DNA of 34,368 nucleotides from an uncultured Lachnospiraceae bacterium (GTDB taxonomy: Bacteria; Bacillota; Clostridia; Lachnospirales; Lachnospiraceae): positions 1-34,368 of the forward strand of contig CACXMK010000028.1 in NCBI GenBank assembly GCA_902768735.1, written 5' to 3'. How positions within the stretch are numbered: the stretch's first letter is position 1; the number at the start of each line of letters is the position of its first letter. The position numbers were made by a program, and so were the translations under genes. Positions 1,550 through 32,738 of this stretch are shown here, piece by piece. The notes under the pieces are model-generated. The model did not search any database. It was not told the DNA's origin and saw nothing but the letters and a program-made list of their open reading frames with translations.

Positions 1550-2899
1550 ATGCAAAGAGATTTGACGCAGGGCAACCTGTTCGGAAAGATGATGCAGTTT
1601 GCCGTTCCGTATCTCGTCGCCTGTTTTCTGCAGACGTTTTACGGGATGGCGGACCTGTTCATCACGGGACAATTCAATGGCGCGGCGGCGGTTTCCGCGG
1701 TAGCGGTCGGCAGCCAGGTGATGCATATGCTCACTGTGGTGATCGTCGGACTCGCGATGGGTACCACCGTGTGCATCAGCAGATCGATCGGCGCAGGCTC
1801 GCAGAAGCAGGCAGCCGGGTACATCGGGAATTCTGTTGTGATGTTTGCCGGCATTGCAGTGGTCCTGACTTTTATTCTGCTGTTCAGTATCGGCGGGATT
1901 CTGGGGATCCTGGCGGTTCCTCCGGAAGCGCTGGAGGATGCCCGCAGATACCTTGTCATCTGCTTTGCAGGTGTTCCGTTCATCGTAGCTTATAACGTGA
2001 TCAGCAGTATCTTCCGCGGAATGGGAGATACCGGGAGCCCGATGGCCTTTGTGGCGATCGCGGGTCTTATCAATGTGGGGCTAGACTATGTTTTGATCGG
2101 TCCCATGAAAATGGGGGCAGCAGGGGCGGCGTTCGCGACAGTCAGCGCCCAGGCGATTTCCGTGATGCTGGCCCTATTGTTCCTCGTCAAAGGAAACGGC
2201 GGAGTCGGCGTCACGAAGAGCGACTTTCGCCCTGACGGGCAGCTGATGTCCCGCCTTGCGGGGATCGGTGTGCCGGTAGCCTTCCAGGAGGGACTGATCC
2301 AGGTGTCGTTCCTCGTCATCACAGCGATCGCGAACAGCCGCGGCGTCAATGTCGCGGCGGCTGTCGGCATCGTGGAGAAGATCATCTGTTTTCTGTTCCT
2401 TGTGCCCTCGTCTATGCTCTCAACCGTTTCGGCGGTCGCCGCGCAGAACGCCGGCGCAGGTAAGCACGAGCGCAGCCGGAAAGCGCTGTGGTACGGCATC
2501 ACTGTCTGTGTGACTGTCGGCGCGGTCGTCTTTCTGGTCTGCCAGTTCGCGGCGGAACAGATCGTCGGCGTATTTGTGACAGACGAGCCGGAAGTGGTCA
2601 GGCTTGGCGGGCAGTACCTGAGATCCTACACGATCGACTGTATGATCGCGGGAATCCATTTCTGCTTCGGCGGATATTTCAGCGCGTATGGAAAGTCGCT
2701 CTATTCTTTTTTCCACAACATCGCGTCCATCGCGCTCATAAGGATTCCGGGCGCATACCTGGCGTCCGTCCTGTTTCCTGCGACGCTTTACCCGATGGGG
2801 CTCGCGGCGCCGACGGGCTCGCTCCTGTCGACGTTCATCTGCTTGTATCTGTATAAAAGACTGGTCGCGAAGCAGGAGAAGATGTTTCCCGGATTTTGA
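1550..2899 (+). CDS. MATE family multidrug/cation antiporter
   Basis: A 449-residue, very hydrophobic protein with about 12 predicted membrane segments in two similar halves, the normal MATE length. The N-terminus (LTQGNLFGKMMQFAVP, then a helix with QTFYGMADLFITGQ) and the AVGSQVMHM and MGTTVCISRSIGAG segments are typical of the DinF/NorM-like clade common in Clostridia. Such proteins export cationic drugs or metabolites from the cytoplasm using a Na+ or H+ gradient. The ATG at 1550 has a modest AGGA site 7 nt upstream. It is separated from the upstream gene by a terminator. Its last codons (GGATTTTGA) form the left edge of the repeat array that follows. The exported substrate cannot be read from the sequence. 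Confidence 0.93.
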   Translation: MQRDLTQGNLFGKMMQFAVPYLVACFLQTFYGMADLFITGQFNGAAAVSAVAVGSQVMHMLTVVIVGLAMGTTVCISRSIGAGSQKQAAGYIGNSVVMFAGIAVVLTFILLFSIGGILGILAVPPEALEDARRYLVICFAGVPFIVAYNVISSIFRGMGDTGSPMAFVAIAGLINVGLDYVLIGPMKMGAAGAAFATVSAQAISVMLALLFLVKGNGGVGVTKSDFRPDGQLMSRLAGIGVPVAFQEGLIQVSFLVITAIANSRGVNVAAAVGIVEKIICFLFLVPSSMLSTVSAVAAQNAGAGKHERSRKALWYGITVCVTVGAVVFLVCQFAAEQIVGVFVTDEPEVVRLGGQYLRSYTIDCMIAGIHFCFGGYFSAYGKSLYSFFHNIASIALIRIPGAYLASVLFPATLYPMGLAAPTGSLLSTFICLYLYKRLVAKQEKMFPGF

Positions 2900-3297
2900 G
2901 CGGTTGGGCGCATTTGTAAAGTGGGGAAAAAATGTTCCCACAGATTTTGAGTGAGTTGGGCGCAGGCATCTGATCAAGTGCAAAATGTTCCAATAATTCT
3001 TGCGATGAAAGGCAGAGTTGGGCGCAGCGAGCAGTGTTTTGAAAAATGTATACAAATAGAAGCCTGACTATTGGAACACTATTTCCGTATGCCCGTATCA
3101 CGCCCAACTATCCTAAGATTAGTCATTATTTGTGGAGCATTTTCTTAGAATAATCTCATTACGCCCAACCGCGATGAAATTAGATGGAACATTTTTGGCG
3201 AATGCCTATGTCACGCCCAACCATTCAGTATACGCAATAATCCCTGGGGAACAAATCTGAGAAACATTCTCACCCGGCAACATATGGGGAGAAAACA
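2900..3297. repeat. symmetric six-site repeat array (GTTGGGCG/AAAATGTTCC), no gene
   Basis: This 398-bp gap has no convincing ORF. GTTGGGCG occurs on the + strand at 2903, 2955 and 3017. Its complement CGCCCAAC occurs at 3101-3108, 3162-3169 and 3214-3221. The spacings are 52 and 62 on the left and 61 and 52 on the right, so all three pairs share a centre at about 3062. Most units carry a second block, AAAATGTTCC or a near match (GGAACATTTT on the right), 15-20 bp inside the first. The DNA between the blocks is little conserved. It could be a multi-site operator, a degraded MITE-like inverted element or a structured RNA. The last 76 bases (3222-3297) should hold the csoR promoter and ribosome binding site, but no clear -10/-35 pair is visible. 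Confidence 0.85.
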
Positions 3298-3810
3298 ATG
3301 AGAGAAACAGAAAAAATCCTGTCGAAAAATGAAGAAATGACAGCTGGAGTGGATGGCGATAGCCGGGAGGCAGCAAACGGACACTACCACACGCACGACG
3401 GCGTTCATTACCACACGCACGACGGCGAGGAAGCACACAGCCATGAAGGCGAGAACGCCCATGACCACAGCCGCGACGGAGAGCATGCCCATGACCACGG
3501 CCATAACGGCGGGCATGCCCATGACCACCACAACCACAGCCACACGCACGATCCGCAAGAGACGCGCGCCATCATCAATCGTCTCAAGCGGTCGATCGGA
3601 CATCTCGACAAAGTGCGCCGCATGGTGGAAGAGGGCGAGGACTGCGCGGACGTACTGATCCAGTTGTCCGCGGTGAAGTCAGAGATCAACAATACCGGAA
3701 AGCTCATTCTCAAGCAGCATATGGAGCACTGCATTGTAGAGGCCGTCAGGGAGAATGACCGGGAATCCATCGAAAAAATGAACGAAGCGATCGACCGCTT
3801 CATGAAATAA
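3298..3810 (+). CDS. csoR: CsoR-type copper-sensing repressor with His-rich N-terminal extension
   Basis: Residues 87-170 form a CsoR/RcnR/FrmR (DUF156) helical domain. The Cu(I) triad is intact with the exact family spacing: C116, H141 and C145 (CsoR C36-H61-C65, separated by 25 and 4). Copper sensing is therefore more likely than nickel or formaldehyde sensing. Residues 29-84 contain about 21 histidines in HTHDG, HAHDH and similar repeats; ordinary CsoR is about 90 residues with no such region. The extension looks like a metal-binding or buffering segment. CsoR tetramers release operator DNA when they bind Cu(I). No copper ATPase or chaperone gene is adjacent, so the target is unclear; the repeat array just upstream and the MATE gene are possible targets. 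A GGGGAGA site precedes the ATG. Confidence 0.88.
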   Translation: MRETEKILSKNEEMTAGVDGDSREAANGHYHTHDGVHYHTHDGEEAHSHEGENAHDHSRDGEHAHDHGHNGGHAHDHHNHSHTHDPQETRAIINRLKRSIGHLDKVRRMVEEGEDCADVLIQLSAVKSEINNTGKLILKQHMEHCIVEAVRENDRESIEKMNEAIDRFMK

Positions 3811-5148: not shown

Positions 5149-5596
5149 CCGATGCTTTGGGGGATTTATTGCCGGTTGAGGGGCGGTGGAAGCCCTATGG
5201 GCGTCCCTCAACCGTCCGATTCGTCGATTTAAGCTTGAATTGCCGTTTGAGGGGCGGTGGAAGCCCTATGGGCGTCCCTCAACCGGCCAATTTATGGATT
5301 TAAGCTTGAATTGCCGTTTGAGGGGTGATGGAACCCTTTCGGGCGTCCCTCAACCGTCCAATTCGTCGATTTAAGCTTGAATTGCCGGTAAAGGGGCGAT
5401 GGAAGCCCTATGGGCGTCCCTCAACCGTCCGATTCGTCGATTTAAGCTTGAATTGCCGTTTGAGGGGCGGTGGAAGCCCTATGGGCGTCCCTCAACCGTC
5501 CAATTCAGAAATATCAACTTGATATGCCGCTTAGAAGGCGGCTAAAGGGTGTCAAACGGCACCAAACCGGAAACACTTGCAGGGAGAAGGAAAAGC
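5149..5596. repeat. 71-bp tandem hairpin repeat, five copies, no gene
   Basis: Units begin at 5178, 5249, 5320, 5391 and 5462, each exactly 71 bp apart; the last degenerates after about 5510. Each unit holds a potential hairpin. In copy 1, CGGTTGAGGG (5173-5182) pairs with CCCTCAACCG (5205-5214), with an inner GCCC-TAT-GGGC stem. In copy 3 the inner stem is kept with a different loop (CCC-TTTC-GGG) and the unit length stays 71. Because 71 is not a multiple of 3, the short ORFs here are not a repeated protein. There is no T tract after the hairpins. The 5' end of the following gene's leader lies at about 5533-5596. Confidence 0.93.
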
Positions 5597-14569: not shown

Positions 14570-14956
14570 TCACCTTTCGCTTGCCAAGTGGTGCGAAATC
14601 ATCAAATTGGTCTGAAATCAATTACATTACGGTTTACGTGATGTTCTGTTGGTGTTGCCGTCACGCAAGTGTCAAATTCACTGAAGCTTTATTTATGTTG
14701 ACGTTACTTTGACGTTAAGTATGCCTCAGCGTCAATCCCAGCGTCAAAACTGGCGCAAGTATTAGTGAATTGACGCCGACTTTGACGTTAAGCATGCTTT
14801 GGCGTCAATCCCAGCGTCAAAACTGGCTCAAGCATAAGTGAATTGACGCCGACCTTGACGTTAAGCATGCCTCAGCGTCAATCCCGGCGCCAAAACCGGC
14901 CAAACCGTCAAAACCAGCCAGCTCCATTTTAAGAAGAACCAAGCATTTCCGAAAAA
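14570..14956. repeat. 73-bp tandem repeat, about 3 copies, between yhaO and yhaN
   Basis: TTGACGTTAAG-type units start at 14709, 14782 and 14855, 73 bp apart; the third is partial and ends near 14900. Each unit has repeated TTGACG and CGTCAA words in opposite orientation around a GCATGC core (TTGACGTTAAGCATGC...CGTCAA), so it can form a hairpin. A degenerate TTGACGTTAC precedes the first unit at 14699. No ORF is supported. The rest (14570-14690) shows only the yhaN ribosome binding site. No clear promoter for yhaN was found. Confidence 0.85.
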
Positions 14957-32603: not shown

Positions 32604-32633
32604 AAAAGGAGTTCATACAGAACTCCTTTTCTT
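32604..32633 (+). terminator. terminator after rplA
   Basis: AAAAGGAGTTC (32604-32614) pairs with GAACTCCTTTT (32620-32630), with an ATACA loop. The arm ends in TTTT and is followed by CTT. Confidence 0.88.
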
Positions 32634-32642
32634 GTGCGATAA

Positions 32643-32685
32643 GCCGGTAAGCGCAGCTCGTGCCTGCACGCAGATGCATACCGGC
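32643..32685 (+). promoter_or_regulatory. structured leader upstream of the capA-like gene
   Basis: GCCGGTA (32643-32649) pairs with TACCGGC (32679-32685), enclosing a CGTG/CACG stem. A second possible stem, CCCGG with CGGGG around TTTTT, lies at about 32717-32731. No known riboswitch is recognised. Confidence 0.4.
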
Positions 32686-32738
32686 AAACGGTCAATCGAG
32701 TAGGAGTCCCTCCTGCCCGGTTTTTCGGGGAGAACACG

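Follow-up and report, generated by a model that had tools for sequence, protein, structure and literature searches.

A mirror-symmetric array beside csoR in a Lachnospiraceae genome: a probable solo copy of a dispersed element linked to a PD-(D/E)XK-type nuclease

Introduction

What is a mirror-symmetric set of six repeated sites doing between a MATE gene and csoR? The window (the whole stretch of DNA analysed, 34,368 bp) contains the word GTTGGGCG six times, three times forward and three times inverted, and all occurrences fall within positions 2903-3221. A sequence-only reading of the locus had offered three explanations: a looped operator, a decayed insertion whose ends carried multiple transposase sites, or a structured RNA. 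Is the array a local feature, a mobile one, or part of something larger? Comparison with the rest of the genome, with the genus and with the order offers an answer.

The six-site array

The array lies between the MATE gene (PF01554, ending at 2899) and the gene for a CsoR-type repressor (PF02583, starting at 3298). Its units are listed in Table 1. The spacings had been given as 52, 62 | 61, 52 and the centre of symmetry as near 3062, and the positions match. Most units had been said to carry an AAAATGTTCC-like inner block as well; such a block begins 26-27 bp inside every GTTGGGCG. It contains TGTTCC in four of the six units, whereas the third forward one has TGTATAC and the second reverse one TGCTCC. 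A minus-strand open reading frame that overlaps the array is antisense to MATE. The left edge was thought to include MATE codons, but the conserved unit starts two bases after the stop codon (TGA, 2897-2899) and thus holds none.

Table 1. Positions of the array, its units and possible relics in the window
Feature	Position	Strand	Remarks
Whole conserved array, GGTTGGGCG...CGCCCAACC	2902..3222	.	321 bp, 3 forward and 3 inverted units
Ends of the whole array, GGTTGGGC...GCCCAACC	2902..3222	.	Ends common to five full-length copies
Unit L1: GTTGGGCG (2903) and AAAATGTTCC (2929-2938)	2903..2938	+	
Unit L2: GTTGGGCG (2955) and AAAATGTTCC (2982-2991)	2955..2991	+	52 bp from L1
Unit L3: GTTGGGCG (3017) and variant inner block AAAATGTATACA (3043-3054)	3017..3054	+	62 bp from L2
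Unit R1: CGCCCAAC (3101-3108) and inner GGAACACT (from 3073)	3073..3108	-	89 bp tip to tip from L3
Unit R2: CGCCCAAC (3162-3169) and inner GGAGCATTTT (3134-3143)	3134..3169	-	61 bp from R1
Unit R3: CGCCCAAC (3214-3221) and inner GGAACATTTT (3186-3195)	3186..3221	-	52 bp from R2
Probable decayed fourth right unit: GGGGAACAAATC (3246-3257) and degenerate CACCCGGCAAC (3271-3281)	3246..3281	-	
Relic of fourth left unit tail, ATGTTTCCCGGATTTTGAGC	2882..2901	+	Possible, by resemblance only; overlaps last MATE codons

On the right side, the array probably extends to about 3281 through a degenerate fourth unit. Positions 3186-3264 form a 76% alignment with an array of a relative (G013) that covers the candidate unit; fourth right units were scored in three other copies of the same genome (contigs C11, C17 and C64), and the window's candidate scored below the threshold. 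A fourth left unit was scored on contig C23 (L026, position 5177), and the MATE C-termini of nine relatives end otherwise than that of the window. The neighbouring CsoR-type gene (3298-3810) carries a histidine-rich N-terminal extension, the length of which varies among relatives.

Copies in the same genome

The organism's own genome assembly (G000; 2.73 Mb in 157 contigs, 85.5% complete, 2.7% contamination) contains nine matches to the array, itself included, and the other eight are 77-89% identical to it. A check on copies and spacing had been set beforehand as a refuting test; other copies exist, and they keep the spacing. Five copies are full length (C28, which is the window, C64, C23, C40 and C56) and one is internally shortened (C11:4013-4229). 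Contig ends cut the copies at C11:5-170 and on C17, and on C37 only the right end is found. The full copies begin and finish alike (Table 1), the sequences outside are unrelated, and the blocks are largely invariant. Spacers between the blocks had been called not conserved. This is correct between subfamilies but not within the window's own, where the five full copies show a mean column identity of 89%, as expected from common descent.

Beyond the own genome, the array DNA was not found in the set of relatives (one of 61 genomes, the own), nor was the triple-site pattern in the genus (one of 62, again the own), and plasmid and phage sequences gave no match to the array. Triple TTGGGC, sought as an exact pattern in the species collection, gave at least 116 stretches, six of which passed a loose filter, with none array-like among the matches listed. 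A scan of viral contigs with the composite pattern gave 30 matches, about two-thirds of them one recurring sequence, and none was array-like by eye.

Empty and filled sites

Was this junction always occupied? When the MATE-csoR region is aligned, MATE adjoins csoR without the array in nine genomes of the same genus, the gap from the aligned MATE end to the csoR core being 142-302 bases versus about 660 in the window. A tenth genome (G025) apparently has no csoR at the MATE junction. Other sites tell of presence and absence as well. A related solo array of about 411 bp in G013, also present in G033, has its place taken in G003 and G079 by about 13-15 bp. One flank of this site recurs on another contig of G079, the assembly of which may therefore be mixed. 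A module consisting of array, nuclease gene and array is present in G013, G033, G077 and G079 and absent from G003, with about 2.05 kb in G013 (two arrays and the gene) versus about 94 bp in G003. At a third site, G013 and G033 have this kind of array, G077 has an array with another motif by eye (TTAGGTACAG), and G003 and G079 have a short terminator-like region and no array. Terminator-like hairpins were seen by eye at or beside these three sites (the G013 solo array, the module and the third site).

Target-site duplications were not recognised in the empty/filled comparisons, in which flank identity was about 78-96%; no classical signature of transposition was seen at these junctions, which have drifted. 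Judged by these alignments, the pattern is one of arrays being gained or lost at particular places.

At one intergenic spot, two close relatives have different array families (L375 in G077:C86 and L247 in G013:C65) and two others have none, which marks an insertion hot spot common to relatives. Within L247, two near-identical units adjoin each other (1769-1891) and the G033 alignment overlaps as if that array were shorter, which suggests that whole units are gained and lost.

A nuclease gene between twin arrays

Which protein accompanies the arrays? An open reading frame of 278 aa lies between twin arrays in G013 and G024. In the loci read, the twin arrays of gene-bearing modules are about 1.0-1.2 kb apart and this is the only recognised gene between them. 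The encoded protein (about 278 residues) is taken as a nuclease of the PD-(D/E)XK type with a putative C-terminal nuclease domain, and its N-terminal part is presumed to be a DNA-binding region. Invariant among 20 aligned members are VRSK.E, DF of PDF and EH.G of WEHxG, among others. E168, D198 and E213 are invariant in all 20; E213 is followed by H214 and not by the x-K of the core E...PD...(D/E)-x-K. At E<=0.1, each of the 20 matches the PADLOC model PDC-S68 (best 7e-30, at the C-terminal end in the member shown) and the model HEAT_CxxC_PDDEXK (best 1e-6).

Searches of Pfam, NCBIfam and PDB with the nuclease gave nothing above cut-off; the TnsA model of Pfam reached E 0.25 and 12.3 bits against a cut-off of 26.5. 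An A1 profile found no solved homolog by sequence in PDB at E<=1, and the N-terminal half matched no model of a DNA-binding family. A relative of the nuclease was not found in viral contigs. Part of the protein matches six plasmid records (five annotated as AAA ATPase or RecQ helicase, one unannotated) and one unannotated phage record.

Matches to the nuclease occur in 35 of 62 genomes of the genus. The own genome has an intact gene at C11:2926-3756, with the shortened array about 256 bp away and the other array 2.8 kb off, and a broken gene on C17 near other arrays. It also has a second, distant homolog (L299, G000:C48, about 2555-3316) amid 14 copies of a CAACCGATAA-like word, which are spaced mostly by 63-64 bp and lie on both sides; a similar-looking repeat is found at G000:C53:7310.

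Array architecture and nuclease lineage in the genus

A looser pattern matched in 13 of 62 genomes of the genus, and mapping with a weight matrix placed composite-type units in seven (G000, G013, G033, G024, G025, G077 and G079). Most of these arrays have 3-4 units per side and a few have two. Spacings are 50-53 or 61-63 bp in the great majority of mapped arrays, values that are not free of choice because the matrix was seeded with sites whose neighbour lay 50-54 or 60-64 bp away, and the looser pattern allowed 50-72 bp; the centre, on which no limit was set, measures 89-92 bp. Spacers between the blocks have diverged across the seven genomes, and spacing and centre are kept. Incomplete arrays are exceptions, as are the shortened C11 copy (centre of 98), the fourth unit on C23 (spacing of 48 bp) and a spacing of 83 bp on C17. 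In the own-genome family, short and long spacings follow each other in mirrored order; in G025 this does not always hold (e.g. 51,62 | 52,62), and the order of the 52/62 spacings is not mirrored in L241-L243. In the remaining six of the 13 genomes the repeats are different by eye; those in G001 and G065 adjoin a nuclease homolog.

Do array motif and nuclease go together? With the exact TTGGGC pattern, the seven composite-array genomes are the same seven that have full-length nuclease matches of 62-100% identity, and their nucleases form one clade (support 0.981, or 0.993 when G081:C86 is added to the tree). Arrays of the exact pattern thus co-occur with this clade in 7/7 genomes and are found in 0/55 genomes that lack it. 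The G081:C86 nuclease, 65% identical over part of its length, falls outside the clade beside that of G007:C157 (support 0.991), and both are flanked by TTAGG-type units. Six weakly array-matching places of G081 were read. Four have solo arrays of the TTTAGGTAC type, with spacings mostly of 50-53 or 62-63 and centres of 90-100, one has a mixed array and one has no array. Because G081 combines TTAGG arrays with a nuclease outside the clade, the motif broadly follows nuclease lineage. As read from these loci, the match is not strictly one to one: the mixed array (L389, G081:C5, 524-968) has three TTAGG units on one side and then five TTGGG units, which the exact pattern missed, and no clade member was found in G081. 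L389 has the look of a recombinant between two motif families, or of one family in the course of changing into the other.

Nuclease-linked repeats across the order

At 23 genus-level nuclease loci, where units were counted within 900 bp of the gene and classes were assigned by reading, repeat units occur on both sides at 11, on one side at nine (among them L280, which has a single unit and a flank cut short) and none were seen at three (L287, L290 and L295). Motifs are specific to the locus, e.g. TTTCGGTACAG, GTTAGGTAT and GTTGGGCAAA. The nuclease family is present in 81 of 392 genomes across the order (E<=1e-20). For the flanks, 29 loci among the matches listed were used, the own genome left out, with up to 800 bp on each side; L322, the same locus as L023, was dropped from the flank, core-enrichment and spacing counts. 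The commonest flank 10-mer reaches at least six copies at 18 of the 29 loci versus five of 100 control windows of the same size (Mann-Whitney p 5e-14), the controls being drawn from 20 nuclease-carrying genomes and mostly coding, the nuclease flanks mostly not. At the other 11 loci it has five copies or fewer, and shuffled nuclease flanks reached 2-5. Adjacency of nuclease and array is therefore seen across the order, while the array motifs differ among loci. That one motif is kept throughout the order was tested and not supported: the TTNGGYAY core showed no enrichment among the order-level loci (p 0.20).

Helical phasing

The pitch of B-DNA is 10.5 bp. Spacings between same-strand neighbours pool near 41, 52, 63, 74, 85, 94 and 105 bp, and a set of 72 spacings is fitted best by a period of 10.54 bp (vector strength 0.68). 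When each locus contributes just its modal spacing (n=39), the vector strength at 10.5 bp is 0.77, with p ~1e-10, a rough value as related loci are not fully independent, and the best period is 10.66; the largest scan value in 2,000 random sets was 0.50. Control windows with at least four copies (n=31) gave 0.29 (p ~0.08). Order-level loci alone (n=24), for which the test was free of preset spacing choice (minimum of 25 bp, spacings of 30-125 used), gave 0.70, with an equally rough p of ~9e-6. The near-duplicates L286, L291, L333 and L338 and loci with fewer than five copies were left out of the spacing tests. A recurring spacing with drifting spacers, the quantisation, the dyad and the nuclease linkage are most simply accounted for by a DNA-bound protein complex, most likely of the nuclease, that occupies one face of the helix.

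The window holds other repeats. Two arrays, one of them intergenic (5168-5570; 71-bp unit, 4.8 copies) and one with TTGACGC words on both strands (14706-14903; 73-bp unit, 2.7 copies), have units of about seven helical turns. The former has a relative on C23 (L026 6352-6814), where a further six-site copy lies 1.2 kb away; it is possibly another nuclease-linked family, and no cognate gene was found for it. About 95 bp at 32622-32714 are 90% identical to a stretch of C23 (L026 8300-8395) and represent another dispersed repeat.

What does the array represent?

The window array is probably a gene-less ('solo') copy of a dispersed element that belongs to a nuclease-array system and whose spread would be driven by the nuclease. 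Several copies of the small nuclease would bind the six composite sites, which are spaced by whole turns around a dyad, and would lie on one face of the double helix. The bound nuclease would make breaks, and break repair would presumably copy the array DNA. In this way arrays, with or without the gene, may spread into intergenic sites, several of them beside terminators. The nuclease gene itself is often bracketed by such arrays. Binding of the units by the nuclease, cutting, and a spread driven by that cutting are what we infer from the genomic pattern. Among the three earlier options, an insertion carrying multiple protein sites is the closest: the copies are dispersed, the array is absent from the junction in nine relatives and it is linked to a nuclease. 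A decayed transposon end is less apt a description, as what is conserved is the six-site array as a whole, and no transposase model matches the linked enzyme above cut-off.

Could the array nevertheless be a miniature inverted repeat transposable element, i.e. a non-autonomous transposon with three transposase sites per end that depends on a transposase (DDE or other) from another locus, with the nuclease as a TnsA-like accessory or a neighbour? The ends of Tn7 and Mu each carry several repeated protein sites in inverted orientation, and Tn7 has a PD-(D/E)XK nuclease in its TnsA; the window array likewise has several repeated putative protein sites per side, inverted. The dispersed copies, the common ends and the weak TnsA-like similarity (E=0.25) also speak for such an element. 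Transposon ends tolerate any intervening length, however, whereas here the six-site array with its fixed centre of 89-92 bp is the unit in diverged copies; moreover, the modules read show no DDE partner, the nuclease being the one gene recognised between the twin arrays, and target duplication was not recognised, at junctions that have drifted. A transposon of this kind appears unlikely. Somewhat less likely is a regulatory or nucleoid array of the host, at which a host protein bends or bridges DNA and which the nuclease gene merely adjoins or in some cases exploits. Helical phasing and dyad symmetry would suit a looped or bridged complex, and the four other full copies and the shortened copy in the own genome overlap no open reading frame of at least 150 aa. 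But occupancy of the sites varies between genomes and the genes next to them are unrelated, nuclease and array stay adjacent across the order while motifs change, and the exact pattern separates genomes with and without the nuclease clade completely (the mixed array of G081 being missed by it). The location of copies at unrelated sites also disfavours a local looped operator.

The inverted units could form a long imperfect hairpin, as RNA or as single-stranded DNA, and the hairpin might be the form that functions or moves, a proposal also made for REPINs. The window array does fold better than shuffles (z -4.0, and -2.7 in a second test), and so do another 12 arrays, with z between -2.9 and -9.1. 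Inverted protein sites alone would yield such folds, so the folding can be explained without an RNA function. The covariation term is unfavourable (+1), with three of 89 pairs changing on both sides among five aligned copies. Flanks with same-strand units only, in contrast to the inverted arrays, fold little or no better than shuffles (0.3 and -0.2 for L296, -1.8 and -1.0 for L294). Spacing order is not always mirrored, as L241-L243 show, quantisation by 10.5 bp is a property of the double helix, and positions 2500-3700 gave no Rfam match at E<=1. The structured RNA put forward earlier is thus disfavoured, and a hairpin role is improbable. The integron attC site (GTTRRRY/RYYYAAC) was another candidate, rejected because its half-site order is the reverse of that in the array.

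Comparison with known systems

The preferred reading, a solo copy within a nuclease-array system, has its nearest known arrangement in REPIN-RAYT. REPINs are REP doublets with a Y1/HUH transposase, RAYT, whose lineages differ in the repeat that accompanies them; clusters of the matching REPINs lie next to every RAYT gene, and mobilisation in trans is proposed (PMC3116915). The array elements are likewise dispersed, short, intergenic and inverted, the enzyme gene lies beside its own repeat type (on at least one side at 20 of the 23 genus-level loci), and several nuclease lineages each have their own repeat. The two differ in enzyme, which is PD-(D/E)XK-like and not HUH, and in repeat, with composite sites of ~36 bp in helix-phased arrays, whole arrays bracketing the gene, instead of palindromes of 20-40 bp. 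The array unit does not consist of paired inverted short palindromes; it has mostly 3-4 + 3-4 composite sites at 52/62 bp, and elsewhere arrays are same-strand only. No Pfam match to the Y1/HUH transposase, which we take to be of the PF01797 type, was found at E<=0.1 in any of the 20 nuclease members. Because enzyme class and unit differ, the array system is not a member of REPIN-RAYT.

Homing endonucleases of the PD-(D/E)XK type are encoded by small genes that spread by break repair and lie inside their target site. The array-linked gene is also a small nuclease gene and would, as proposed, spread by break repair, but its putative sites form long phased arrays, which lie next to the gene and are also found on their own. 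PDC-S68 and HEAT_CxxC_PDDEXK, which share a related nuclease domain, are candidate defence models of 1202-1273 and 288 positions; the linked protein of ~278 residues has a different N-terminus and flanking arrays.

Significance

No description of nuclease-linked or intergenic repeats of this kind was found in the part of the literature searched, as judged on titles and beginnings of abstracts. Within that coverage, our judgement is that the array-nuclease system looks like an undescribed kind of mobile or self-spreading DNA. Could the nuclease suffice? Tentatively, and with more doubt than attaches to the reading of the window array itself, one may envisage a nuclease-only mobile DNA, in which one small PD-(D/E)XK-type protein assembles on phased arrays and, with no known transposase or recombinase, places new copies of the array, at times together with its own gene, at further intergenic sites, many lineages across the order using different motifs under the same whole-turn rule. 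If this is true, a stand-alone PD-(D/E)XK-type nuclease would join the classes of enzymes able to drive dispersed DNA. It would also be a rare case where genome sequence alone reveals proteins that read one face of the helix, through spacings near 41, 52, 62, 74, 85, 94 and 105 bp across different motifs. And it would provide an origin for otherwise unexplained intergenic tandem and inverted arrays in these genomes.
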